Positions 34,398-48,786 of a stretch of 64,000 bases of DNA are shown piece by piece (positions within the stretch are counted from its first letter, which is position 1; every line of letters begins with the position of its first letter). The position numbers were made by a program, and so were the translations under genes. A model generated the notes under the pieces. That model searched no databases. It was given only the letters and a program-made list of their open reading frames with translations, and was not told where the DNA came from. The stretch comes from Sphingomonas paeninsulae (lineage in GTDB: Bacteria > Pseudomonadota > Alphaproteobacteria > Sphingomonadales > Sphingomonadaceae): positions 744,001 through 808,000 of the forward strand of contig NZ_CP032829.1 of assembly GCF_003660165.1 (NCBI RefSeq). The letters run 5' to 3'.

Positions 34398-35519
34398 GTG
34401 AATCATGCCTTGTCCCCTGCTGCTTGTCGCCGCCTGATTGTGAAGGTCGGATCTTCGCTGCTCGTCGATGCGAGCGGCGCGGTGCGGCGCGAATGGCTGG
34501 CGACACTGGTCGCGGACATCGCCCGGCGCATCGCTGCCGGACAACAGGTCGCGGTTGTTTCGTCCGGTGCGATTGCTTTGGGCGCGCGACGGCTAAAATT
34601 GACGAAGGGAGGTCGCGCAAACCTCGAAGATGCGCAAGCCGCCGCTGCGGTCGGGCAGATTGCACTTGCCGGCGTGTGGGCGGACTTGCTCGGCGATCAT
34701 GGCCTAACTGCCGCGCAGATGCTCGTGACGCTTGACGACCTTGAAGATCGTCGCCGTTATCTCAACGCGTCCGCCACTCTGGAACGGCTGCTGTCGCTCA
34801 AGGTCGTTCCGATTATCAACGAGAACGACTCGGTTGCCACGCACGAAATAAAGTTCGGCGATAATGATCGGCTGGCTGCCCGAATCGGTGCGGCCGCAAA
34901 TGCCCAGGGCGTCGTTCTGCTATCCGATGTCGATGGTCTCTACACCGCCGATCCCACGCGCGATACCACCGCCACCCGCATCGAACGCGTTACCCGCATC
35001 GATGCCAAAGTGCTGGCGATGGCTGGCACTGGCACATCATCCGGCATGGGATCGGGCGGCATGGCTTCGAAGATCGAAGCGGCGCGCATCGCCAATAGCG
35101 CAGGAGCCGACCTGATCATCATTTCCGGCCACGAAAGCCATCCGTTAACGCGCATGGATTCAGGTGAGAACGGCACGGTATTCGTGGCGTCGGCGCGAAC
35201 AAAAGGGCGCAAGACATGGCTGGCCGGGCGATTGACCGTCCGTGGCACCATTCACGTTGATGCCGGGGCCGTGCGCGCGCTTGCGTCAGGCGCATCGTTG
35301 CTGGCAGCCGGAGCCAAACGCACCGAAGGAAGTTTCTCGCGTGGTGATGTTGTGGACATTGCCGGTCCCGATGGCACGCCGATCGCAAGGGGCCTCAGCG
35401 AATATGACGCAGCCGATGCTGCGCGAATTACGGGCCTGAAAAGCGACGCGATCGCTGCCGTCCTTGGCTACGCGCCACGGTCGGCCCTGATCCACCGCGA
35501 TCATATGGTCCACCTTTGA
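34398..35519 (+). CDS. proB: Glutamate 5-kinase
   Basis: 373 residues. Amino acid kinase domain (VKVGSSLLVD, VSSGAIALGARRL, NENDSVATHEIKFGDNDRL) followed by a C-terminal PUA domain from about 275 (GRLTVRGTIHVDAGAVRAL). First step of proline synthesis. Starts at GTG 34398. Its stop overlaps the next start in TGATG. No proA is adjacent. Confidence 0.96.
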   Translation: MNHALSPAACRRLIVKVGSSLLVDASGAVRREWLATLVADIARRIAAGQQVAVVSSGAIALGARRLKLTKGGRANLEDAQAAAAVGQIALAGVWADLLGDHGLTAAQMLVTLDDLEDRRRYLNASATLERLLSLKVVPIINENDSVATHEIKFGDNDRLAARIGAAANAQGVVLLSDVDGLYTADPTRDTTATRIERVTRIDAKVLAMAGTGTSSGMGSGGMASKIEAARIANSAGADLIIISGHESHPLTRMDSGENGTVFVASARTKGRKTWLAGRLTVRGTIHVDAGAVRALASGASLLAAGAKRTEGSFSRGDVVDIAGPDGTPIARGLSEYDAADAARITGLKSDAIAAVLGYAPRSALIHRDHMVHL

Positions 35520-36418
35520 TGCGTATCGCGGTCACAGGAGCAACCGGCTTCGTCGGCGGCCATCTTTTGCCCCGGCTAATCGAAGCGGGGCACGAGGTCA
35601 GGGCACTGACCCGCAAACCTAAAGCAAGATGTGCAGGAATAACCTGGATCGATGGTGCCCTAAACGACGACACCGCACTCGCCCGCTTGTGCGAAGGCTG
35701 TGACGCCGTCATCCACGTCGCCGGCGTCGTGAGCGCGGACTTTGCAGGGTTCGATGCCGGGAACCGACTCGGCACGCTGGCTATCGTCCGTGCCGCCGAA
35801 ACTGCCGGAGCAACGCGTTTCGTTCACATCTCCTCCCTCGCCGCGCGAGAACCCCAGCTTTCGATGTACGGAGCTTCGAAACACGCCGCAGAGGACGTCG
35901 TGACTGCCTCCAGCCTCGACTGGCGAATCGTTCGTCCAACCGCGATCTATGGCCCCGAAGACACGGGGATGCTCGACATATTTCGCATGGCAAAACACGG
36001 TTTCGTCGTGCTTCCCCCAACCGGCAGCATGTCGGTCATTCACGTCGATGATCTTTGCCGCCTGATCGTTGCGCTAACCGAAAGCCCCGATGGTCGCGTG
36101 CTCTACGAAGCAGACGACGGCGTTCCGGGCGGCTGGACTCATCGCGAATTTGCTGCCGCACTCGGTAAGGCGATGGACCGCAAGGGGATTGCTTTGCCGA
36201 TGTCAAAGTCGGTGCTTTCGATCGCATCGCGGCTGGACGTCCTGTTCCGCGGGAAAAACGCAAAACTGACGGCCGATCGCGTCGGTTATCTTACTCATCC
36301 GGACTGGACGATCGCCCCCGGTCACCGCGTCCCCGCCACACTCTGGACGCCGCAAATCGCCACCCAGGCTGGCCTTGCGAACACCGCCAACTGGTACCGC
36401 GAACATCGGTGGTTATAG
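35519..36418 (+). CDS. NAD-dependent epimerase/dehydratase family protein, CerR-like candidate
   Basis: 299 residues, extended short-chain dehydrogenase fold with TGATGFVGGHL at the N-terminus and the catalytic Tyr-Lys pair in MYGASKHAAED. In Caulobacter an enzyme of this family (CerR) reduces the ceramide precursor, and here the gene lies about 650 nt from acp-spt, so a sphingolipid role is plausible but inferred. It is translationally coupled to proB and overlaps the convergent Pycsar-type gene by 6 nt. Confidence 0.75.
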   Translation: MRIAVTGATGFVGGHLLPRLIEAGHEVRALTRKPKARCAGITWIDGALNDDTALARLCEGCDAVIHVAGVVSADFAGFDAGNRLGTLAIVRAAETAGATRFVHISSLAAREPQLSMYGASKHAAEDVVTASSLDWRIVRPTAIYGPEDTGMLDIFRMAKHGFVVLPPTGSMSVIHVDDLCRLIVALTESPDGRVLYEADDGVPGGWTHREFAAALGKAMDRKGIALPMSKSVLSIASRLDVLFRGKNAKLTADRVGYLTHPDWTIAPGHRVPATLWTPQIATQAGLANTANWYREHRWL

Positions 36419-36946
36419 CACGCCTGTAAATTGCAGCGCGAATGCGGCCATCGTCAGCACCAGGCCAACGAGAAAGACTCGGTACGCCGCGCCCAGGAAT
36501 TTATACTTCTTATGCTGTAACACCTGCCCATTCTGGTAAATGTCGCGGAGCATAGCGCGGTGAACCGTTGCAGGCTCACTAAGCAGGACCAGCATTTTAT
36601 CGATATACTCGTCCTCGCTCATATTCGCGAAACTGCCGAAAAACAGCAGGTTGGGCTTTGCCGATGGTTTTGACCTGATCGACGGCATGATCGCGAACAC
36701 CGCCAGCATCGCCGACAGAAACGCGAATGTCGCCACTATGATGAGCGCAACCGACAGATGTTCGCGGCTCGCTTGATTGACCGCAATCGTAAACACCACG
36801 AACGTTGCCCCCATCAGTATACTCGCCTTCTGGTCCGCCATTTGCGACAGGCTGACATTGATCTGCTCGGTCGTGCGGATCAGGTGGATGGCATCGGCGG
36901 CCAAGGGTCGAACGGGCAAATCGACGGGAGTTACAGGTTCGGGCAT
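36413..36946 (-). CDS. Pycsar-type transmembrane effector family (PycTM), no cyclase nearby
   Basis: 177 residues. An amphipathic N-terminal helix (IRTTEQINVSLSQMADQKAS) leads to two membrane helices at about 43-61 and 65-88, a cytoplasmic segment with FFGSFANMSEDEYI and MLRDIYQNGQVLQHKKYK, and a last membrane helix at about 152-172. That order and the FFG...DEY...DIY...KYK pattern match the PF18967 effectors of the Pycsar antiphage defence, which permeabilise membranes on cCMP/cUMP binding. No nucleotide cyclase gene lies within the window beside it, so it may be an orphan or have another role. Confidence 0.65.
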   Translation of the reverse strand: MPEPVTPVDLPVRPLAADAIHLIRTTEQINVSLSQMADQKASILMGATFVVFTIAVNQASREHLSVALIIVATFAFLSAMLAVFAIMPSIRSKPSAKPNLLFFGSFANMSEDEYIDKMLVLLSEPATVHRAMLRDIYQNGQVLQHKKYKFLGAAYRVFLVGLVLTMAAFALQFTGVL

Positions 36947-37068: not shown

Positions 37069-37311
37069 ATGACCGAACGCACAGAAATCTATGACATCGT
37101 CGCCGCGCAGATCGCGCCTTTCAACAAAAAAGGCGTTGCGCTGAGCGAGGCCACAACCTTTGCCGGCGATCTCGAATGGGATTCGCTGACAGTCATGGAT
37201 TTCGTTGCCGCGATCGAAGATGAATTCGACATCATCATCACGATGAACATGCAGGCCGAAATCGAAACCGTCGGGCAATTGATCGACGCAGTAGGCAAGT
37301 TGAAAGCATGA
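37069..37311 (+). CDS. Acyl carrier protein dedicated to sphingolipid synthesis
   Basis: 80 residues. The phosphopantetheine site is Ser39 in EWDSLTVMDFV, and the fold is acidic and helical. Its stop overlaps the serine palmitoyltransferase start by 4 nt (ATGA). Alphaproteobacterial SPT genes are regularly paired with such an ACP, which presents the acyl chain to SPT. AGGA lies 8 nt before the ATG. Confidence 0.9.
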   Translation: MTERTEIYDIVAAQIAPFNKKGVALSEATTFAGDLEWDSLTVMDFVAAIEDEFDIIITMNMQAEIETVGQLIDAVGKLKA

Positions 37312-38519
37312 GCGACCTGTTTTCCAAATTCGACGCCCTGATCGAGGAACGTCAGGCGCTGCTCGATACCGGTGTGCGCGACCCCTATTCAATCGTCATG
37401 GAAAAAGTGCTGTCGCCGACGCGCGCGCTGATCAACGGCAAGGAAACTATCCTTGTCGGCACCTATAATTACATGGGCATGACCTTCGACCCCGACGTCA
37501 TTCAGGCGGGCAAGGATGCGCTCGATCAGTTCGGCGCGGGCACGACTGGCAGCCGACTGCTCAATGGCACTTATCAGGGCCATCGCGAGTGCGAGGATGC
37601 GCTGAAAGAATTTTACGGCACCGATTACGCGATGGTGTTTTCGACCGGTTATCAGGCGAACCTCGGGCTGGTTTCGACCATCGCGGGCAAAGGTGACTAC
37701 ATCATCCTCGACGCCGACAGCCATGCGTCAATCTACGACGGCTGTGCTTTGGGGAATGCCGAAGTCGTCCGCTTCCGCCACAATTCGGTCGAAGATCTCG
37801 ACAAGCGCCTCGGTCGCTTGCCACCCGAAGCAGGTAAGCTGGTAGTCCTTGAGGGCGTCTATTCGATGCTCGGCGACGTTGCACCGCTGCCCGAAATGGT
37901 CGCTGTCGCAAAGAAACACGGCTGCATGATCATGTGCGACGAAGCGCATGGCATGGGCTTTTTCGGCAAACATGGTCGTGGCGTCTTTGAGGAAATGGGC
38001 TGCGAAGGCGACATCGACTTTATCGTCGGCACGTTCAGTAAATCGGTCGGCACAGTCGGCGGCTTCGTCGTGTCCAATCACCCGAAGTTCGAAGTGCTCC
38101 GCCTCGTCACCCGTCCCTACGTCTTCACCGCGTCGCTGCCGCCCAGCGTTGTGGCGACCGCAGCGACCTCGATCCGCAAACTCATGCACGCAGGCAACAA
38201 ACGCGCGCATCTATGGGAAAACTCGAAGCGGCTGCACGGCGGTTTGCGCGAACTCGGCTATAAACTCGGCACCGAAACCCCGCAGTCGGCCATCATCGCG
38301 ATCATTCTCACGGATCAGGCTCAGGCAGTCGCACTGTGGCAATCGCTGCTCGAAGGCGGCGTTTATGTGAACCTCGCGCGTCCGCCAGCAACCCCTGCGG
38401 GCATGTTCCTGTTGCGCTGTTCTCTATGTGCCGAACATTCGGCCGAGGAGGTCGAAACAATCCTCGGATTGTTCGCTACTTCGGGACGGGCGGTTGGTTG
38501 CATCGGACCAGCCCGGTAG
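37308..38519 (+). CDS. spt: Serine palmitoyltransferase
   Basis: 403 residues of the alpha-oxoamine synthase family. Substrate-binding and PLP residues: GSRLLNGTY, H139 in DADSHASIYDG, DEAHGMGFFG at 211-220, and Schiff-base Lys245 in GTFSKSVGTVGG, where the VGTVGG sequence is the SPT type rather than 8-amino-7-oxononanoate synthase. It condenses serine with an acyl thioester to 3-ketosphinganine in the cytoplasm, committing carbon to sphingolipids, the hallmark lipid of sphingomonads. Confidence 0.96.
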   Translation: MSDLFSKFDALIEERQALLDTGVRDPYSIVMEKVLSPTRALINGKETILVGTYNYMGMTFDPDVIQAGKDALDQFGAGTTGSRLLNGTYQGHRECEDALKEFYGTDYAMVFSTGYQANLGLVSTIAGKGDYIILDADSHASIYDGCALGNAEVVRFRHNSVEDLDKRLGRLPPEAGKLVVLEGVYSMLGDVAPLPEMVAVAKKHGCMIMCDEAHGMGFFGKHGRGVFEEMGCEGDIDFIVGTFSKSVGTVGGFVVSNHPKFEVLRLVTRPYVFTASLPPSVVATAATSIRKLMHAGNKRAHLWENSKRLHGGLRELGYKLGTETPQSAIIAIILTDQAQAVALWQSLLEGGVYVNLARPPATPAGMFLLRCSLCAEHSAEEVETILGLFATSGRAVGCIGPAR

Positions 38520-38562: not shown

Positions 38563-40512
38563 ATGGTGAACCGTCTCAGCGAGGATAGTGCGCCGCGCCG
38601 CGGCTGGCGAACCGCAGCCCTGATGCTGGCGGGTCTGCTTGCCGTCGCCATAAGCGCTGCGCTGATCGTCTCGCTAAATACAGCCACTCGTCAGCGGGAT
38701 TCCGCTCTTGGCTGGCAACAGCACAGCTACGAGGTCATGATCCTCGCTCGCGAGCTGGACGCCACGATGGCGAAATCCGAAGCCACGCTCGGACGCTTCG
38801 TCATCAGCGGCAACAAGGACGTCGGCCGCACCTATTTCGACGCGTGGCGCCGAGCGGGCACATTGCTCGACAAACTCACCAGCGAAACGAGCGATCGACC
38901 GGAGCAGCGCGCGCTGATTGCCGCTTTGCGAGATGCCTACACCGTGCGCGGCAGCGAATTGTCAGACGTCGCTCTCCGCACCAACTATGGCCAGAACGAT
39001 CAGGCACTCTCCACTTATTACGAGGCTGGAAAAGCCCCCAGCCTGTCACGCCTGGATGGCCTCCTGACGCGGATCATCGCCAACGAACGCGCAATTCTCG
39101 ACGCACGCACCAATACTGCCGACGATACGGTCGCACTCTCCAATCGAATTGCCACCATATTATCGTTTGTCGGCCTGATTATCCTGTTGTGCGCGGCATG
39201 GCTCGGGCGAAGCGCCTGGGCGGCATGGCGCGACCGTCAGGATGAAGAGCAGCGCAACAGTGAGCTGGAATATGCGGTCGCCGAAAGAACGGGGGAACTG
39301 AGTGATGCAAACACGCGGCTTATGGCCGAAATGGTCGAGCGCGAATTTGCCGAGGAGCGATTAAGGCAGGCGCAAAAGATGGAGGCCGTGGGCCAACTCA
39401 CCGGTGGTATCGCACACGATTTCAACAATATGCTCGGTGTCGTAATCGGCGGGATAGAGCTTGCTCGGCGGCGGATTACCGAACCTGCCCCTGAAGTCGA
39501 ACGTCATCTCGCCAATGCGATGGAGGGTGCCAATCGTGCTGCCGCGCTCACCAAACGGCTTCTGTCGTTCGCTCGGGCAGAACCGCTGCTCCCCGTCGGT
39601 CTGGACCCCGACACGCTGATTCGTGGCATGGGCGAAATGCTCGACCGCACGTTGGGGGACACGATCGAAGTCATCATTCTAGAGGGCGCGAGCTGGTCAG
39701 TTTTCATCGACGCGCACCAGATGGAAAACGCATTGCTGAACCTTGCCGTCAATGCGCGGGACGCGATGGAATATGGTGGTAAGCTCACCATCTCGACGGC
39801 CGACGTCAACCTCGTCGAAGGCGAAATCGCCGAAGCTCCTGTCGGTGATTATGTTCGCATCGCAGTCAGCGACACTGGTGAGGGCATGAGCGCAAAAGTG
39901 CTCGAACGCATCTTCGATCCGTTTTTCACCACCAAAACTGTTGGCAAAGGCACTGGTCTGGGCCTGTCGCAAATCTTTGGATTCGTGCGGCAGTCGGGTG
40001 GTGGGATTGCCGCTACATCGACGCCCGGACACGGAACCACCGTCTCAATTTATCTGCCCCGCCATTGCGGCAACGTCACAGCGATGGCGGATAGTGCCGA
40101 GCAATCGGACGGTCGATCGCATTATACCGGCGTCGTAACTTTGGTGATCGAGGACGACCCGCGCGTTCTGAACGCGACAGTCGGTGCGTTGCGCGAACTC
40201 GGTCATCTTCCCCTGCCCTGCGCCTCCGCCGCCGATGTACCAGCCCTTTTGCGCGAACACCGCGACATCGGCCTGATTGTCAGCGATGTGCTGATGCCCG
40301 GCGTCACCGGTCCAGAACTTGTCGCGGCGATCCACACGCTGCACCCTGAATTGCCGGTTCTGTTCGTGACGGGGTTTGCCGGTGATGTCGAAGACCCACA
40401 GGCGTTCGGCGGCCATGAAGTTCTGAGAAAACCATTCACGATCGCTAGCCTAGGCGATGCCGTTGAACGGGTACTAGACCGTGCCAACGCTGCGCAATCG
40501 AAGGCAGCTTAG
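38563..40512 (+). CDS. Membrane hybrid histidine kinase with CHASE3-like sensor and receiver
   Basis: 649 residues. TM1 at about 16-38, a periplasmic helical sensor of CHASE3 type (RELDATMAKSEATLGRFVISGN), TM2 at about 197-214, a coiled segment, the phospho-accepting H285 in GGIAHDFNN, an ATPase domain with NLAVNARDAM and DTGEGM and GTGLGLS, and a receiver with VSDVLMPG and LRKPF. The class is that of orphan hybrid kinases. The input signal is unknown; its position in the lipid region may be fortuitous. It overlaps the next convergent gene by 4 nt. Confidence 0.9.
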   Translation: MVNRLSEDSAPRRGWRTAALMLAGLLAVAISAALIVSLNTATRQRDSALGWQQHSYEVMILARELDATMAKSEATLGRFVISGNKDVGRTYFDAWRRAGTLLDKLTSETSDRPEQRALIAALRDAYTVRGSELSDVALRTNYGQNDQALSTYYEAGKAPSLSRLDGLLTRIIANERAILDARTNTADDTVALSNRIATILSFVGLIILLCAAWLGRSAWAAWRDRQDEEQRNSELEYAVAERTGELSDANTRLMAEMVEREFAEERLRQAQKMEAVGQLTGGIAHDFNNMLGVVIGGIELARRRITEPAPEVERHLANAMEGANRAAALTKRLLSFARAEPLLPVGLDPDTLIRGMGEMLDRTLGDTIEVIILEGASWSVFIDAHQMENALLNLAVNARDAMEYGGKLTISTADVNLVEGEIAEAPVGDYVRIAVSDTGEGMSAKVLERIFDPFFTTKTVGKGTGLGLSQIFGFVRQSGGGIAATSTPGHGTTVSIYLPRHCGNVTAMADSAEQSDGRSHYTGVVTLVIEDDPRVLNATVGALRELGHLPLPCASAADVPALLREHRDIGLIVSDVLMPGVTGPELVAAIHTLHPELPVLFVTGFAGDVEDPQAFGGHEVLRKPFTIASLGDAVERVLDRANAAQSKAA

Positions 40513-41372
40513 CGAACAGCTCCGCTCCGCAACAAACGCGGGAGTAAGCTGACACCGCCCAATATCGGAAACCGCCGTTGCCACGGCTTTATCGCTATAG
40601 CGGTCCCGGCGTGGCGATTAATCTTCCACGCCAAATAATCGATCCCACCGGCAAAGGTCGCAGTGGCCTTTGCCAACCGTAGCACCGACATGATTTTTCC
40701 CCGTCGACGCAGCGTCGTCCAGCGTTGCTCCGCCTCTTCCCGACTCATCGGCACAACCGAAATAGCATCGGCAAATTGCGCATATCGTTCGGGGTCTGCA
40801 TCGACCACCGCTCCCGGTCTCGCGCTGCTTTCCGCCCTCAATTCGGACGCATAGGTCAACTCGAATCCTCGCCTCCAAACATCCAGCAAGTCGCCGTTCG
40901 TCATAGGACGAGCCAGCGCAAGCAACGTCGGGGCAGCCTTGGCAACAGCACCGACCGCTGCGCCGCGCGCCACGCTATCGGCCACCCAAACCAGTCGCGA
41001 AGGTTGCGCAAACCGCGCCCACACCGAAACCGTGTCGGCGTCAGGGTCGCACAGCCTCGCAAAGTCAGCCTCGCTCAATACTGCATATTTGGCGGCTAAT
41101 TTATCACTGGCGAAGGGGAAAACGTTCGGCGGGATGAGGCGATTAGCAGTCGCGAGCCAGCACCGGTCGAACGCAGCGGCGTAATCCGAAACGATCAGAT
41201 AAAAATCGAGCATCAGCCCGTCGAGCTGCTTTTCGCGCAGGCATGACCCGTAAAATAGTACCGCCCGGGAAGCCGCGCCGTGTTTGGCAGCGATTGCCGC
41301 TGCCATGTCTGAAACTTCCTGAGCGACAGGCATCCCCAGCTCGTCTGCAACCAGCCGAGAGAGATCGCTCAT
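40509..41372 (-). CDS. Tam41-like nucleotidyltransferase, putative lipid-phosphate cytidylyltransferase
   Basis: 287 residues. FYGSCLREKQLDGLMLDFYLIVSDY resembles the nucleotidyltransferase loop of the Tam41 family (GS...DF), and KYAVLSEADFARLC with the following WARFAQPSRLVWV fits the second half of that fold. Tam41 makes CDP-diacylglycerol in mitochondria. The ATG overlaps the stop of the lipid kinase (ATGA), so kinase then cytidylyltransferase would give a CDP-lipid; with the neighbouring spt genes a sphingolipid substrate is my inference. Confidence 0.6.
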   Translation of the reverse strand: MSDLSRLVADELGMPVAQEVSDMAAAIAAKHGAASRAVLFYGSCLREKQLDGLMLDFYLIVSDYAAAFDRCWLATANRLIPPNVFPFASDKLAAKYAVLSEADFARLCDPDADTVSVWARFAQPSRLVWVADSVARGAAVGAVAKAAPTLLALARPMTNGDLLDVWRRGFELTYASELRAESSARPGAVVDADPERYAQFADAISVVPMSREEAEQRWTTLRRRGKIMSVLRLAKATATFAGGIDYLAWKINRHAGTAIAIKPWQRRFPILGGVSLLPRLLRSGAVR

Positions 41373-42331
41373 GCAGCGAGGCGCAGAAACGCCATGGGCT
41401 TGGTCGGACGCAGGGTAATCGGCGCGCCGGGTCCGGTATGAAAGATCTCGCCGTCCAAAATAACGCTGCTACGGTCGCTCTCGATGCGGATATGGTCGCC
41501 ATGCTCGACATGCACTCCGGTCATTGGGCGCGAACCAAGGCGCCCCATCAGTGCCGCATGAATAGCGCGAACCAGCGCAATCGCCGACTGATCGACCGCC
41601 ATGAATTTGAGGCCGGGCCGCACGCCGCCCTCGGTCTTGCTACCCAGCAACATCTTCTCGAGCGTCGTAACGATCATTAGCGCAAACCGCCCGGTGACCT
41701 GCCCATCACGCATCAGCGAAATCCGCATCGGCGAAGGTAGTGGCGGCAGAAACTTTGCGCTGAAACCCGGAATCAATGAAAGCAAGACTGCCAAAACCGT
41801 CACAAAATGGCTGAGGCCATTCGACATACCCAGTGGATAGATCACATGGCGGCAATACAAAATCGAATCGGCCAGCCCCGCCCCACCGAGGAACATGCCC
41901 AGCACTGGCGGACGCCCACCTTCGCTGAGCGCGATCAACTCACGTCGCACGACATGGTCGTCGAGGTCCGATGCGGCCAGCTCCAGAATCCGCGCCAGTC
42001 CGGCAACCGGATCGCCAGTCGAGCCGAGGTCGAGCGCGATCAAATTGGTCTTGCCGTTGGGCAGCACCGCAACCGGCGGTGGATTGCCTTCGAAATAATT
42101 GCCCTGATGCAATTCGGTCAGTGCCGCCTGAACGGTACCGTCGCCGCCATTGATGACGAGAACGCGCGGCCGAACACAGGCGATTGAGCGCAGCGCCTCA
42201 CCAATCTGGCCGACATGCTCAACCTCATAGTGAAACAGCTCACCATGTTCGGCGCAAAACTCACGAATGCGCGGCAGGAGAGCAAGATTGCCCGTGGAGC
42301 TCGGGTTGGACAGAAGCGCAACCCGCGCCAT
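41369..42331 (-). CDS. Diacylglycerol kinase-family lipid kinase, ceramide kinase candidate
   Basis: 320 residues. DAGK catalytic domain with VLVINGGDGTVQAAL (about 56-70), VAVLPNGKTNLIALD, and the C-terminal beta domain with VILDGEIFHTG. The gene is second in a coupled trio between the DUF2141 gene (TGATG) and the Tam41-like gene (ATGA). Caulobacter makes ceramide phosphate with a kinase of this family (CpgB), so ceramide or a sphingoid base is a good guess; a diacylglycerol or undecaprenol substrate cannot be excluded. Confidence 0.72.
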   Translation of the reverse strand: MARVALLSNPSSTGNLALLPRIREFCAEHGELFHYEVEHVGQIGEALRSIACVRPRVLVINGGDGTVQAALTELHQGNYFEGNPPPVAVLPNGKTNLIALDLGSTGDPVAGLARILELAASDLDDHVVRRELIALSEGGRPPVLGMFLGGAGLADSILYCRHVIYPLGMSNGLSHFVTVLAVLLSLIPGFSAKFLPPLPSPMRISLMRDGQVTGRFALMIVTTLEKMLLGSKTEGGVRPGLKFMAVDQSAIALVRAIHAALMGRLGSRPMTGVHVEHGDHIRIESDRSSVILDGEIFHTGPGAPITLRPTKPMAFLRLAA

Positions 42332-42828
42332 CAATTTTTGCCTACGGGGCGAATCGAGAAGCCGCTGCGATAATTCAGTACGACGCCGATTTCGCGCGGC
42401 ACTTGCCCGACCGGGATGACCACTTTTTCAAAGTCCGGCTTCAGATGTAGCAAAGAGAGCGAAGGATTGCGCGAAAACGCCGCCCCATCGTCCCAACCTG
42501 ATTTGCCACTGCCATCCACGTCGTGGCGCACAGCAATCGCGTATTTTCCGGGGCCAGGAACCGCTATACAAACGTCCATATAACCCGACGCCGTCACTGG
42601 CAGTTCGATCCGACGCAATTTTTTGCCCTTCGCCAGCCAGTCCGCCGGGTTGCCGCCATAGACCTGCACACGCAGCATACCCGTCCGCGCCTTGAATCCT
42701 TCGACCCGCACCAGTACCGCCGACGCAGTAGGGTTTGCGCAAGCCGCCGCGTCGCTTCCAAGAATAGCCGCGCGCGATGGCGCTGCGTTCAAAACAGCCA
42801 ATGCAATGAGGACCGAACGTATCTTCAA
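42331..42828 (-). CDS. DUF2141 secreted protein
   Basis: 165 residues with a signal peptide (MKIRSVLIALAVLNAAPSRA) and a single beta-sandwich domain: LRVQVYGGNPADWLAKG, VPGPGKYAIAVRHDVDGSGKSGW. Function of the domain is unknown. GGAGG lies 8 nt before the TTG at 42828, which I choose; TTG 42831 is also possible. First gene of the trio with lipid kinase and Tam41-like gene, so a lipid-related periplasmic role is suggested. Confidence 0.75.
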   Translation of the reverse strand: MKIRSVLIALAVLNAAPSRAAILGSDAAACANPTASAVLVRVEGFKARTGMLRVQVYGGNPADWLAKGKKLRRIELPVTASGYMDVCIAVPGPGKYAIAVRHDVDGSGKSGWDDGAAFSRNPSLSLLHLKPDFEKVVIPVGQVPREIGVVLNYRSGFSIRPVGKN

Positions 42829-42980
42829 CAAAATCACCTCCAACGCAGGCAATGATGAAGCACGCTTGTACGCCCGCGCCCCTGTTCATTTTCCCCTGCA
42901 ATGTTATTTGGGTGCGGTTTGCGGCCAAATAATGGTCAAGGTTCGGCGCAACATGCACAATCGCGGTCAAGGAATGGCAA

Positions 42981-44186
42981 ATATCTAATTTTCTTACAGC
43001 CACGGACCGCTATCTGGCGCGCCTGATCATCGTTCCCCTGCTTTCATCGCTCGTAGTCGCGGCGATGCTGCTGGTGCTCGACCGCATGTTGCGCCTATTC
43101 GATTTCGTCGCATCCGAAGGCGGTCCGGTCAGCGTCGTGTGGAAAATGCTTGCCAATCTGCTGCCCGAATATTTGTCGCTCGGCATTCCGATCGGCGTTC
43201 TGCTCGGTATTTTGCTCGCGTTTCGAAAAATTGCGCTGTCGTCCGAACTCGACGTTCTGCTGGCCGTCGGGCAAAGCTATTGGCGGCTGCTGCGCGTACC
43301 CTTCATGTTTGCGGCGCTTTTCGCGCTCGTCAATTTCGCGATCCTCGGCTTCGTCCAGCCTTACACTCGCTACGCCTATGAAGGACTGCGCTTCGAGCTG
43401 CGTTCGGGCGCTCTCGGTGCCTCGATAAAGGTCGGAGAATTCACCCGACTCGGCAAGAACATGACCCTGCGCATCGAAAAGAGCGCAGATCAGGGGCGTC
43501 AACTGTCAGGCATCTTCGTCATGGCCAAGCAGGATGATGGCAAGACGCTCGCCGTCACTGCAAAAAGCGGTCAGTTCATGGCAACCGATGATCCCGACGT
43601 CATCATCCTGCGGCTCGCGGACGGCACTCTGGTCAACAACGCACCCGAGTTCAAAACCCCCCGCATCCTGACATTCAAGGCGCACGATCTGCCCATCGAC
43701 CTGCCAAAAATCGAATCCTTCCGCGGTCGTGGTCAGGGTGAGCGCGAGTTAACGCTGCCCGAACTGGTTGCTGTCGGGAAAAGCACGAAAGCGACTGAGA
43801 CGGTCCGCAACGAAATCCGCTCGCAAATCCATTTCCGACTGGTGCAGGTCGTCGTGATGATGTTCCTGCCGCTGCTGGCAGTTGCGCTCGCGGTGCCTCC
43901 CAAGCGATCGACGTCGGCGATCGGCGTATTCCTGTCGATCGTGATGCTGGTCGCCTATTACAAGATCAACGAATATGCCGAGGGTATGGGGTCGATCGGC
44001 TTGCTCAACCCGTTTTTTGCGATCTGGGTTCTATTCGTCGTCTTCGTTTCGCTAGTTGGCTGGATGTTCTACACGCTCGCCTATATCCCCGGCGGTCAGC
44101 CGATCGGCGGCCTCGACCGCGCATTCGGCAAGGCGTTCGCGGGCATCAAACAGCTGTTCACGCGATTTGTCAGGAAGCCACGCTGA
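42981..44186 (+). CDS. lptF: Lipopolysaccharide-type export permease LptF, start codon disturbed
   Basis: About 402 residues with the YjgP/YjgQ topology: TM helices at the N-terminus (RYLARLIIVPLLSSLVVAA), a periplasmic jellyroll in the middle, and three C-terminal helices. The conserved N-terminus is encoded upstream of the first ATG in this frame (43065), but no ATG, GTG or TTG precedes it. An ATA at 42981 lies 7 nt after AAGGA. Alternatively an ATG at 42974 would be in frame if one A of the triplet 42979-42981 were absent. In E. coli LptF with LptG pulls LPS from the inner membrane; sphingomonads carry glycosphingolipids instead. Confidence 0.85.
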   Translation: MSNFLTATDRYLARLIIVPLLSSLVVAAMLLVLDRMLRLFDFVASEGGPVSVVWKMLANLLPEYLSLGIPIGVLLGILLAFRKIALSSELDVLLAVGQSYWRLLRVPFMFAALFALVNFAILGFVQPYTRYAYEGLRFELRSGALGASIKVGEFTRLGKNMTLRIEKSADQGRQLSGIFVMAKQDDGKTLAVTAKSGQFMATDDPDVIILRLADGTLVNNAPEFKTPRILTFKAHDLPIDLPKIESFRGRGQGERELTLPELVAVGKSTKATETVRNEIRSQIHFRLVQVVVMMFLPLLAVALAVPPKRSTSAIGVFLSIVMLVAYYKINEYAEGMGSIGLLNPFFAIWVLFVVFVSLVGWMFYTLAYIPGGQPIGGLDRAFGKAFAGIKQLFTRFVRKPR

Positions 44187-45280
44187 TGCCGAGCTTTTTC
44201 CCGTCCCGCACCATCGCGCTATATATGGGCAAGATGTTCGTCGTCCGTAGCTTTGCCGTGCTGGCTTTGCTTCTGCTCATCCTGCAAATGCTCGATCTTC
44301 TGAGCGAATCGGACAAGATTCTGGCCGTCAAAGGCAACGGCCAGCACGAAATCATGACCTATGTCGGACTGCGACTGCCACAATTGGCCCAGCGTTTCCT
44401 GCCATTCTGCGTCCTTCTCGGCACACTCATCACGCTCGTCACCCTCAACCAGAACAGTGAAGTCGTTTCGATGAAAGCGGCCGGTCTTTCCGCGCATCAG
44501 GTTCTTGCGCCGCTGATCGTCGCAAGTCTGGCGATCGCAACGATGTCATTCTTCTTCAACGAACGCATCGTCACACGCTCATCGGCCACGCTCGATCGTT
44601 GGCAAAACGCCAATTACGGCAAGATACCGTCGGGTGACGAAGCTCAGGCCAACGTCTGGGTACGCGCCGGCAACGATCTGATCCATGCCGAGGATGTCAC
44701 TGGGCGCGGGACAAATGCTGTACTCACCGGCGTAGAAATCTACAGTCGCAAGAATGGCGAGCTCGCTGAAATCCTTCGCGCGCCACGTGGCACGGCGGTC
44801 CGCGGCGGCGGCTGGGCGTTGACGAGTGCAAACATATTCGACGTAACGAGCGGAACCATCCGAGAGCTTGGCCCGATCACCATCGGCAAGAACATCCGGC
44901 CCGACCAGTTCACCCTGTCGAACGTCGATGGCGCAGGCCTGTCGCTTCTCCAGCTTAAAAGCACGATCGACGAATTAGAGGCTGCCGGGCGACCAGTCGC
45001 ATCCCTCCAGTCTATCTTGTGGCACAAGATTTCAGGTCCGCTATCCACCGTTCTCATGCCGCTGCTTGGCGCGGTTGCCGCATTTGGTCTCGCACGGTCG
45101 GGCGCGCTGTTCGTCCGTGCCGTCATCGGCATGGGCCTTGGCTTTGCTTATTTCGTGGCGGACAATTTCGGCCTGGCGATGGGAAATCTCGGCGCATATC
45201 CGCCCCTGCTGGCGGCATGGGGTCCGTTTTTCCTGTTTCTGCTGATCGGCGAAGCGGTGTTGATCCGCACCGAAGAGTAA
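44186..45280 (+). CDS. lptG: Export permease LptG
   Basis: 364 residues, partner of LptF: six membrane helices around a jellyroll domain, with YMGKMFVVRSFAVLALLLLILQMLD at the N-terminus and the FGLARSG and MGLGFAYFVADNFG helices at the C-terminus. Start overlaps lptF stop as TGATG. LptFG with LptB form the ABC extractor for outer-leaflet glycolipids; lptB is not in the window. Confidence 0.88.
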   Translation: MPSFFPSRTIALYMGKMFVVRSFAVLALLLLILQMLDLLSESDKILAVKGNGQHEIMTYVGLRLPQLAQRFLPFCVLLGTLITLVTLNQNSEVVSMKAAGLSAHQVLAPLIVASLAIATMSFFFNERIVTRSSATLDRWQNANYGKIPSGDEAQANVWVRAGNDLIHAEDVTGRGTNAVLTGVEIYSRKNGELAEILRAPRGTAVRGGGWALTSANIFDVTSGTIRELGPITIGKNIRPDQFTLSNVDGAGLSLLQLKSTIDELEAAGRPVASLQSILWHKISGPLSTVLMPLLGAVAAFGLARSGALFVRAVIGMGLGFAYFVADNFGLAMGNLGAYPPLLAAWGPFFLFLLIGEAVLIRTEE

Positions 45281-45459: not shown

Positions 45460-45483
45460 GATCTAATAATGGGAGAGAATGTA

Positions 45484-46304
45484 ATGAATAAGTTTACAGC
45501 ATTTGCGATGTTTAGTGTTGCCAGCGCCCTGGCCATGCCAGCAGCGGCAGTCGAGAGCGTGATAACCGACTTGAACAGCCCAGTACCTGCCGGGACAAGT
45601 TGGGGCACTCTTCCCGGCGAAAACACAGGCACTGTCACCATAACTGGCACAGCTCCACGCTCAGGCAATGGTTCGCTCGAAATCACAGGTGACAGAACAC
45701 GCGTTCAGACTGGCGTCCAATACGCACCCTTTACGACCGTCGTAGGCTCACTCAGCGATGCACAGAGCCTGACCTTCGACTGGCAAATTGCAGGCGACAG
45801 TGGTCGTCAGGAATACAGCCCGGCCTTGCGTCTGCTCACGCAGAGCGGCGACACGCGGAGCGAGTTGATCTGGGAATCAGCGTATCAGCCTGGCCCGACT
45901 CCGGGAACAAGTGAACAGTCACTGCCAAGTGGCAACTGGTATTCGTCCAGCCCGACCGATCTGTTTTACCAGAATGTGGCGGGGCGGGTCCAACATACGT
46001 TGGTGGGACTCAGAGCTATGTTTTGATGACACTCGCCGGTTGGGCAAGTTCCAGCTATTATGGTGCGGGCGCAACGGTGTCCGGGATCAGTGTCGGAGCA
46101 GGCAGTGGAGCAGGCGCAGATTACCACGCCTTTGCCGATAATGTGACATACACAACGACGCAGGGTTCAACGACCTACAACTTCGAAACCCTGGTTTCCG
46201 CGGCTCCGGAACCAGCAACCTGGGGCATGATGATTGTCGGCTTCGGCATTGTTGGCGGCGCGACCCGACGCCAGAAGCGTGGGGAGCGCGCGCTGCTCGC
46301 TTAA
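45484..46304 (+). pseudogene. Secreted PEPxxWA-CTERM protein, interrupted by a one-base frameshift
   Basis: The ATG at 45484 with GGGAGAG upstream gives a signal peptide (MNKFTAFAMFSVASALAMPAAA) and a beta-rich body. That frame reads LFYQNVAG and then stops at 46026. A second frame encodes GPTYVGGTQSYVLMTLAGWA and the sorting signal PEPATWGMMIVGFGIVGGATRRQKR. One extra G in the run at 45981-45984 joins them to 273 residues. PEP-CTERM proteins are processed by an exosortase and released or surface-attached. Whether truncation is real or a sequencing error is open. Confidence 0.8.
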
Positions 46305-46396: not shown

Positions 46397-47500
46397 TTAA
46401 GCCACCCCCCGCATCGTATTTGCCATCAAACTACGGACCAAACCCGGCAGTCCTGCATAGCTCGCCTTATGATAGGGCGAATCCTCGGTCACGGCCGCCG
46501 CAATCCGCCGGTGGGCCTCTCCCAGTGCATGATATGGCAAACTGGGCAACAGGTGGTGCAGCGCGTGATAGCGCAGCCCCACGGGCGCCCACAGCGCGGG
46601 CAGCAAGGTCGGCGGTGGCACATTCACCGTATCCAGATATTGCGCGGTCACCGTCATCGTCTCGCCGTCGTTTTCCCAAAGATGCGCGACCAGCGTCCGC
46701 ACCTGATTGAGTACCGCGACACCCGAAGCCACGCCCAGAAAAATCAGGAACCCGCGCAACGGCACAACCCCGGTCGCGACCAGCGTCAACAGCGTGATTG
46801 CCCAGATGCTCGCGCCAGCTTCGAACCAGTGCCACAGCGTCCGCGCCTCACCCTCGGGCGCACGGCGGCGGAATGCGGGGTTGATCGCCAGTCCCGAATA
46901 TTGGGCGACGATCCGTTCACGAAGTTTCGGAAACACCACGCCCAGTGGCGTCAGCACCGCAAACCGGACCAGCAAGACAATCGGCGCCAGCAATGAAACG
47001 ACAACGAACAGCGGCAACGAATAGGGCTTCATCAGCGCCAGCGGCAAATATTCGGGATCATCGGTCGTGCCGTAACGCGTTCGCGCATGATGAAGCGTAT
47101 GAACGCCCTCATAGAGGAACGACGGCACCAGCATCGGAATACCCATCAGCAGGTTCCAGCCAATGCGGAAACCCGGCACCGACGAATGCTTCATGTGCGT
47201 CAGTTCGTGAATAAAGCTGCCCGCACGATAGAGCGCCAACACGGACGCGACAGCCGCAAGAATCGCCCAGCCGACGGGCACCAACACGATCGCCGCATAC
47301 AGCGCGCCATAGCCAAGCACAGCCGACCCCAGCATGTCGCCCCAATATATGGCCGGACGGGCGGCGGATATGTCGCGGGTCAGCTCGGCCGCAGCCCTCA
47401 GCATCGCCATATCGTCCGCGATCCGAACACGCGCCGCAGGGGCCGTCAGGACTGTCGGCGCTTCGGCTTCGAGGCCGTCCAGAAGAAGTGAGCTTTTCAT
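46397..47500 (-). CDS. Membrane fatty acid desaturase family protein
   Basis: 367 residues from the ATG at 47500 (MKSSLLLDG). The three histidine boxes for the di-iron site are HELTH, HTLHH and HALHH, among four to six membrane helices. Family members desaturate or hydroxylate acyl chains, including sphingoid bases. It is divergent (125 nt) from the ceramide-synthase candidate, which favours a sphingolipid acyl substrate; that is inference. Confidence 0.85.
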   Translation of the reverse strand: MKSSLLLDGLEAEAPTVLTAPAARVRIADDMAMLRAAAELTRDISAARPAIYWGDMLGSAVLGYGALYAAIVLVPVGWAILAAVASVLALYRAGSFIHELTHMKHSSVPGFRIGWNLLMGIPMLVPSFLYEGVHTLHHARTRYGTTDDPEYLPLALMKPYSLPLFVVVSLLAPIVLLVRFAVLTPLGVVFPKLRERIVAQYSGLAINPAFRRRAPEGEARTLWHWFEAGASIWAITLLTLVATGVVPLRGFLIFLGVASGVAVLNQVRTLVAHLWENDGETMTVTAQYLDTVNVPPPTLLPALWAPVGLRYHALHHLLPSLPYHALGEAHRRIAAAVTEDSPYHKASYAGLPGLVRSLMANTMRGVA

Positions 47501-47625
47501 GATCGTCGGTTCGTATCGAAAGATAATGGCAGCACCGTGGCGAATCCAGACCGGCAACCTCGCTCGCGACTTGACACCGCCGACCGAAGGCGGGACTTGG
47601 ACACAAAGTCGAAAGGCGCCGTAAA

Positions 47626-48786
47626 TTGGCCAACATCAACACCGTGACGATCCGCGAAGTCAAATCGAAGGCCGATCGCACGGCATTCGTCGACCTGCCT
47701 TTCCGCCTCTATGAAAACGACCCGAACTGGGTTCCCCCTCTGAAATACGAGGTCCATGGGCTTATCACGCCAGGCAAGAATCCGTGGTTCGAGCATGGCG
47801 AGGCGCAGCTTTTTCTGGCCGAAGCATCCGGTCGCGAGGTTGGTCGCATCTCTGCCCACATCGACTTCCTTGCGCTGACGCAACCCGTCGAACAGGGCAT
47901 GGGTCCGGGGACTGGCAACTGGGGTCTGCTTGAGGCCGAGACTCAGGAAGTCGCCAGCGCTTTGATCGCTCGCGCCGAAGACTGGTTGCGCGCCAAGAAG
48001 ATGACCCGCGTCCTCGCTCCGCTGTCGATTTCGATCTGGGATGAGCCGGGGTTGCTGACAAAGGGGTTCGATCACCCGCCGACGGTAATGATGGGACACA
48101 ACAGCCCCGATTATCAGCCATGGATCGAAGGTGCCGGCTATGCGCCTGTTAAAACATTGCTTACCTACGAAATCCCCATCACCAAGGAATTTCCACCACT
48201 GGTCCAGCGGATCGTCAAATCGGGCGAACGCAATCCCCGTATCGTCATACGCCGCGTCGACAAGAGCAATTTCAAGGCCGAAGCTGCGCTCATCCTGAAC
48301 ATCCTGAACGATGCGTGGAGCGACAACTGGGGCTTCGTCCCGCTGACCGATTCCGAAATCGCCTATGTCGGTAAAAAGCTAAAAGACATTGTTTACGAGG
48401 ACTTGATCCGCATTGCCGAGGTCGAGGGCAAGCCGGTCGCGTTCATGATGACGCTGCCGGATCTGAACGAGAAACTGATGGGCTATGGCGGTTCGCTGCT
48501 CCCGTTCAATTGGGCAAAACTGCTCTGGTGGTTGCGTGCGCCAAAGGTTCGGACAATGCGCGTACCGTTGATGGGCGTGCTGAAGGAATATCAGGCCACC
48601 CGCCTCGCGAGTCAGTTGGCTTTCATGTTGATCGAATTCATCCGTCGCGATGCGATCACGAAGTACGGCTCGACGCGCGGCGAATTCGGCTGGGTACTCG
48701 ACGACAACAAGCCAATGCGTTCAGTCGGCGAAGCGATCGATGGCGTCATCAACAAGGTTTATACCATTTACGAAAAGCCGCTCTGA
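47626..48786 (+). CDS. GNAT-like acyltransferase, candidate bacterial ceramide synthase
   Basis: 386 residues from a TTG at 47626. The N-terminal marks FRLYENDPNWVPPLKYE and GKNPWFEHGEAQLFLAE, and MGHNSPDYQPWIEGAGY mid-protein, belong to a family of unusual long GNAT proteins often misnamed in databases. The bacterial ceramide synthase bCerS of Caulobacter is of GNAT type and, as I recall it, belongs to this group. With spt, acp and an epimerase-type reductase in the same 13 kb, N-acylation of a sphingoid base is a reasonable prediction; I hold it as inference. Confidence 0.68.
   Translation: MANINTVTIREVKSKADRTAFVDLPFRLYENDPNWVPPLKYEVHGLITPGKNPWFEHGEAQLFLAEASGREVGRISAHIDFLALTQPVEQGMGPGTGNWGLLEAETQEVASALIARAEDWLRAKKMTRVLAPLSISIWDEPGLLTKGFDHPPTVMMGHNSPDYQPWIEGAGYAPVKTLLTYEIPITKEFPPLVQRIVKSGERNPRIVIRRVDKSNFKAEAALILNILNDAWSDNWGFVPLTDSEIAYVGKKLKDIVYEDLIRIAEVEGKPVAFMMTLPDLNEKLMGYGGSLLPFNWAKLLWWLRAPKVRTMRVPLMGVLKEYQATRLASQLAFMLIEFIRRDAITKYGSTRGEFGWVLDDNKPMRSVGEAIDGVINKVYTIYEKPL

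Follow-up and report, generated by a model that had tools for sequence, protein, structure and literature searches.

A stretch of 64,000 nucleotides of the Sphingomonas paeninsulae genome (NZ_CP032829.1, positions 744,001 to 808,000; hereafter the window, part of contig C3 of a 3.99 Mb genome in 3 contigs) carries three coupled genes for a DUF2141 protein, a lipid kinase of the diacylglycerol kinase (DAGK) family and a nucleotidyltransferase resembling Tam41. The kinase and the Tam41-like protein probably catalyse successive steps, from ceramide through ceramide-1-phosphate to cytidine diphosphate (CDP)-ceramide, in the synthesis of phosphosphingolipids. The kinase would phosphorylate ceramide to ceramide-1-phosphate, onto which the Tam41-like enzyme, judged by its fold and motif positions, would move CMP from CTP, giving CDP-ceramide and pyrophosphate; the DUF2141 protein may be an exported accessory protein. 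The pair is most likely a ceramide kinase and a CTP:ceramide-1-phosphate cytidylyltransferase. We infer both substrates, CDP-ceramide as the product, its acceptor and the export of the final lipid, and the gene anatomy, predicted fold class, conservation and co-occurrence were established directly. The three genes are:

40509..41372, minus strand: Tam41-like nucleotidyltransferase of 287 amino acids, probable CpgC, assigned by fold and motif positions
41369..42331, minus strand: DAGK-family lipid kinase, probable ceramide kinase CpgB (PF00781, E 4e-13; GGDG; ATG start at 42331)
42331..42828, minus strand: DUF2141 protein, probably exported (PF09912, E 5e-17; TTG start after GGAGG, by inspection)

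The joints of the trio read TTGATGG (TGATG) and GCATGAGC (ATGA), the kinase gene overlapping the Tam41-like gene by ATGA, which confirms the strand, positions and overlaps given in an earlier sequence-only reading of the window. The longest open reading frame (ORF) of the kinase extends to 42334 and has its own ATG at 42331; for the DUF2141 gene the longest ORF covers 42331-42852 and the TTG start with the preceding GGAGG gives 42331-42828. The DAGK catalytic domain of the kinase is present with the motif INGGDGT. The DUF2141 protein scored 62.2 bits against a Pfam cut-off of 24.4 bits and has a hydrophobic stretch at its N-terminus, export being judged by eye; a fold search with it yielded only weak beta-sandwich hits, none of them a PDB match at E <= 0.001. 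The trio had also been placed 2 kb from spt, the gene of serine palmitoyltransferase (SPT). Between the end of spt and the stop of the Tam41-like gene 1,989 bases were measured, and the gap holds a gene for a hybrid histidine kinase (38563-40512), unmentioned in that reading, which overlaps the 3' end of the Tam41-like gene by 4 bases. ORFs similar to this histidine kinase were seen in 62 of 80 named loci.

The Tam41-like gene was detected with a one-protein query in 44 of 59 Sphingomonadales genomes. A kinase at E <= 1e-10 was present in 44/44 genomes with the gene versus 4/15 without it (Fisher p 5e-9; the tally among the 15 omits one further match at 4e-4), and in all 44 the kinase lies beside the Tam41-like gene and has an intact GGDG. 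The four kinase homologues of the Tam41-like-negative genomes are located at the spt locus and show GGDA, GDKA, GGQA and GDRA at the motif:

L186, 9614-10600
L187, 8914-9876
L188, 9306-10265
L189, 8978-10153

No Tam41-like gene was found by profile search in the 15.8-19 kb surrounding these four. In the wider set, GGDG was present in 83/83 other distinct kinases covering the motif, one additional kinase being incomplete. Loss of the Tam41-like enzyme accompanies loss of the GGDG of the kinase, and since both are lost together, one enzyme probably uses the product of the other; this is the strongest pointer obtained. The four losses may represent only two events, three of them falling in one family (f8). 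The simpler rule, by which any genome with the kinase should also have the Tam41-like gene, was dropped because of these four homologues, all without GGDG.

In the class Alphaproteobacteria, the Tam41-like family was found in 21 of 190 genomes. The SPT model matches 169 of the 190 through related enzymes and 3 exceed its curated cut-off; SPT-positive therefore refers here to the 25 genomes with at least 432 bits, the remainder reaching at most 263, and the dividing line is our own. The gene was present in 21/25 SPT-positive genomes versus 0/165 others (Fisher p 3e-24 for related and thus not independent genomes). The remaining four SPT-positive genomes (G070, G203, G137 and G124) are also without a kinase match; in the 19 kb read they retain spt and the acyl carrier protein gene acpR, and 3/4 also cerR and the gene of a GNAT-like protein. 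Similarly, in the 40 kb read of Escherichia coli BL21(DE3), spt, acpR, cerR, the GNAT gene and lptFG are present, and kinase and Tam41-like gene are absent. The pair forms a branch of sphingolipid synthesis that can be lost separately. Its link to this pathway, proposed in the sequence-only reading, is supported by both the co-inheritance with SPT and the co-decay with the kinase; for the glycosphingolipid branch suggested there, nothing was seen that links it to the trio.

These distributions also bear on a salvage of diacylglycerol, in which the kinase would form phosphatidic acid and the Tam41-like enzyme CDP-diacylglycerol, as in Tam41. Both are textbook reactions of the parent families; however, the absence of the gene from genomes without a clear SPT would be left unexplained, a CdsA-type gene already exists in 59/59 Sphingomonadales relatives, and the Caulobacter kinase acts on ceramide (PMC10331486). 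Salvage is therefore regarded as improbable. The window protein had no match to PF01148 (CTP_transf_1, CdsA-type), and the PF01148 gene of the genome is located elsewhere (G000:C3:148232).

Turning to the reaction proposed for the Tam41-like protein, the predicted structure shows the Tam41 fold with its nucleotidyltransferase and winged-helix domains. The match to Tam41/Mmp37, the mitochondrial and bacterial CDP-diacylglycerol synthase (PDB 6ig4, 6ig2, 7ecd), spans residues 14-240, so the similarity runs on through the second domain, and a wide gap separates the Tam41 matches from all others in the structure search. The positions common to 6ig4 and 7ecd (GS, the D of IDF/IDL, KYG and GRFQKP) are present in the window protein as YGS, LDF, KYA and ARFAQP, taken as motif positions and not assigned as catalytic residues; a TYxxELR stretch resembles SYxGDxR of Tam41. 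The sequence-only reading had made its Tam41-type assignment depend on such residues, and after this check in silico the assignment stands, supported by fold and conserved positions. Neither S43 nor P81 is invariant, being A in 1/24 and W in 9/24 further positive genomes, respectively. In contrast to Tam41/Mmp37, to which the identity is 11-17%, most members of the window family have a PPNV[FY] motif, and the gene is tied to SPT genomes and not to phospholipid synthesis.

The enzyme might instead use another nucleotide or another acceptor, modifying for instance a protein or the head group of a sphingolipid. This would agree with the functional breadth of the superfamily and with the weaker structural matches, among them aminoglycoside and MNT nucleotidyltransferases. 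Where the classical nucleotidyltransferase motif has its second carboxylate, the window protein has Y58 (Y in 114/116). However, both Tam41 chains carry a hydrophobic residue at this position as well (IDFIF, IDLIL), and the large gap in the structure search together with the similarity through the second domain makes such an activity very improbable. A toxin-antitoxin or antibiotic-modifying nucleotidyltransferase, also contained in the structure list, was rejected since such chains fall so far behind Tam41 there.

A comparable gene pair is known from Caulobacter, where the ceramide kinase gene cpgB lies next to the CDP-diacylglycerol-synthase-like gene cpgC in the spt region (CC_1160/CC_1161, CCNA_01218/01219). 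Both adjacent genes are required for ceramide phosphoglycerate (CPG), and orthologues of the pair have been reported in Sphingomonas wittichii and Zymomonas mobilis (PMC11324152). CpgB phosphorylates ceramide in vitro (PMC10331486), in agreement with the Caulobacter ceramide kinase of the same family named in the sequence-only reading. In Caulobacter, the lipids made are important for survival in the absence of lipopolysaccharide and for sensitivity to polymyxin (PMC12275187, PMC11324152). Kinase and Tam41-like gene of the trio most likely represent cpgB and cpgC, an orthology drawn from position: like cpgC, the Tam41-like gene is found beside a CpgB-type kinase in the spt locus, in 44/44 Sphingomonadales and in 17/19 usable loci (of 20) of the wider class, there with the kinase just upstream on the same strand. 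Unlike in Caulobacter, the pair here follows a translationally coupled DUF2141 gene, and neither a cpgA-like CDP-alcohol transferase nor lpxC was found in the genome; the lpxC search gives a signal in 4/14 controls. Another cytidylyltransferase, CpgD (CCNA_01210, COG1213), belongs to the CPG2 pathway as phosphoglycerate cytidylyltransferase and differs in that it activates glycerate and not ceramide (PMC12275187).

The conversion of ceramide-1-phosphate to CPG is an unsolved step of the Caulobacter pathway, and the mechanism of CpgC is termed unidentified (PMC12275187; PMC13228409, a preprint of May 2026). An earlier scheme cited in PMC11324152 lets the CpgC-type protein join glycerate or phosphoglycerate directly to ceramide-1-phosphate with no free CDP-ceramide. 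It fits the genetics taken alone, cpgC being required for CPG, and no dedicated CDP-alcohol transferase is known for the step, the genome holding only pgsA and pssA. We nevertheless consider it unlikely, because the protein shares its fold and motif positions with a CTP-using phosphatidate cytidylyltransferase and because direct attachment is judged energetically not very favourable (PMC11324152). The same 2024 paper proposes that CC_1161 makes a nucleoside diphosphate-activated ceramide. The CDP-ceramide-like route of the sequence-only reading, with CDP-ceramide as a putative product, gained support from the fold and is less new than supposed, being close to this suggestion. In the open-access literature no paper on CDP-ceramide was found, and a search with synonyms returned the 2024 paper alone, with 'activated ceramide derivative'. 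Added here to the published suggestion, as far as the literature was searched, are the Tam41 fold with its conserved positions, the counts of co-inheritance and co-decay, the DUF2141 coupling in Sphingomonadales and a narrowing of the third step. With fold, positions and co-inheritance, a suggestion drawn from a domain becomes a specific reaction that can be assayed; if true, sphingolipid metabolism would use, through CDP-ceramide, the CDP-diacylglycerol logic known from glycerophospholipids.

In the third step, a phosphotransferase would exchange CMP for a small hydroxy compound, which is glycerate in the case of Caulobacter CPG. Two PF01066 genes were found in the genome. One passes the pgsA model; the other reaches 104.7 bits with the pssA model (cut-off 107) and follows an ORF resembling phosphatidylserine decarboxylase by eye. 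The search for the next enzyme is narrowed by PgsA and PssA being the sole CDP-alcohol family genes found: if CDP-ceramide is made here, its user must be PgsA, PssA or a non-PF01066 enzyme (phospholipase-D-type synthases were not searched). In other genomes of the class, a motif scan detected an ORF with the CDP-alcohol phosphotransferase motif directly before the kinase in 6/20 loci, and at L149 such an ORF precedes the Tam41-like gene. Two of these ORFs were checked with Pfam and both match PF01066; this arrangement fits the published CC_1159 (cpgA). A second ORF with this motif occurs near lptFG at loci of other orders (L135 15627-16838, L136 2475-3689 and L149 3028-4410), and that of L135 matches PF01066.

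The anionic product would leave the inner membrane via LptFG, encoded next door. The genome has two PF03739 matches only, the lptF and lptG genes that diverge from the trio, and a sole LptFG beside the trio fits the published proposal of phosphosphingolipid transport by LptF2/G2-type proteins (PMC11324152). In a wider and rather tentative view, slightly short of an even chance, the Tam41-like protein would be a CTP:ceramide-1-phosphate cytidylyltransferase and as such the first enzyme demonstrated to produce a sphingolipid activated by a nucleotide, CDP-ceramide would enter an ordinary PgsA or PssA reaction to provide phosphosphingolipid head groups, and the bacterium would be without lipid A and export these lipids via its only LptFG.

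Several results weigh against CDP-ceramide synthesis by this pair. The TM-scores to Tam41 are moderate, 0.48-0.56, and in the comparison of hidden Markov models with Tam41 that the sequence-only reading had called for, hhalign gave a probability of 70-74%. The window protein had no Pfam or NCBIfam match, PF09139 included. Searches of the PDB sequences with profiles yielded no Tam41 chain, profile A1 returning nothing at E <= 1 and profile A4 only 9xbd_E, a nucleotidyltransferase-domain protein (E 0.047). Among 31 aligned family members, 29 are without a PF09139 match at E <= 1; of the two that match, one (L150) is above the cut-off. The Caulobacter control genome is silent for PF09139 at E <= 1 too, although an InterPro CDP-diacylglycerol-synthase domain is reported for CC_1161. 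Across 190 class and 398 phylum genomes no PF09139 match was above the cut-off, and none was obtained in 14 controls; the sub-cut-off matches G182 (6.5e-5) and G097 (0.55) fall inside independently found family members. Further sub-cut-off matches were seen in three other Pseudomonadota genomes (L155-L157 in G336, G567 and G466).

The gene order is conserved beyond chance. DUF2141, kinase and Tam41-like gene occur in this order in 20/20 loci (L001-L020, which come from 20 of the 44 Sphingomonadales genomes with a match), and in the other 24 the kinase adjoins the Tam41-like gene as well. On named genome contigs, the kinase immediately precedes the Tam41-like gene, in the same orientation, in 50/79 usable loci (of 80). 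The rule that it is always beside the Tam41-like gene was rejected because of the other 29, 26 of which are on contigs titled Sphingobium. Ten of these 29 genomes were searched and the kinase was found elsewhere in 10/10; a GGDG kinase away from the Tam41-like gene occurs in these ten and also in G244 and G181. The 15 of these 29 loci that were inspected keep spt and acpR together with the Tam41-like and histidine kinase genes.

The following further genes were assigned around the trio:

35516..36418, plus strand: NAD-dependent epimerase/dehydratase family protein, cerR-like (Pfam; syntenic with spt)
37069..37311, plus strand: acyl carrier protein, acpR-like (place before spt; similarity across loci)
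37308..38519, plus strand: serine palmitoyltransferase spt (NF047603, 772 bits, cut-off 670)
38563-40512: hybrid histidine kinase with CHASE3, in the gap after spt described above
43065..44186, plus strand: lptF, divergent from the trio (PF03739)
44186..45280, plus strand: lptG (PF03739)
46397..47557, minus strand: fatty-acid desaturase/hydroxylase family protein (PF00487, E 2e-25)
47626..48786, plus strand: GNAT-like protein, candidate bacterial ceramide synthase (weak Pfam match)

The GNAT-like protein is 38% identical to an ORF annotated yghO near spt of E. coli BL21(DE3). For lptF, the PF03739 match reaches back to 43008, ahead of 43065, where its frame has the first ATG, GTG or TTG. Antisense between cerR and acpR, 36413-36946 encodes a membrane protein with a PycTM match (Pycsar effector, E 3e-26), and similar ORFs were seen in 20/80 named loci. 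Finally, at 45469-46304 two ORFs overlap in different frames, and the second ends in a PEP-CTERM-like tail; by eye they look like a single gene split by a frameshift.
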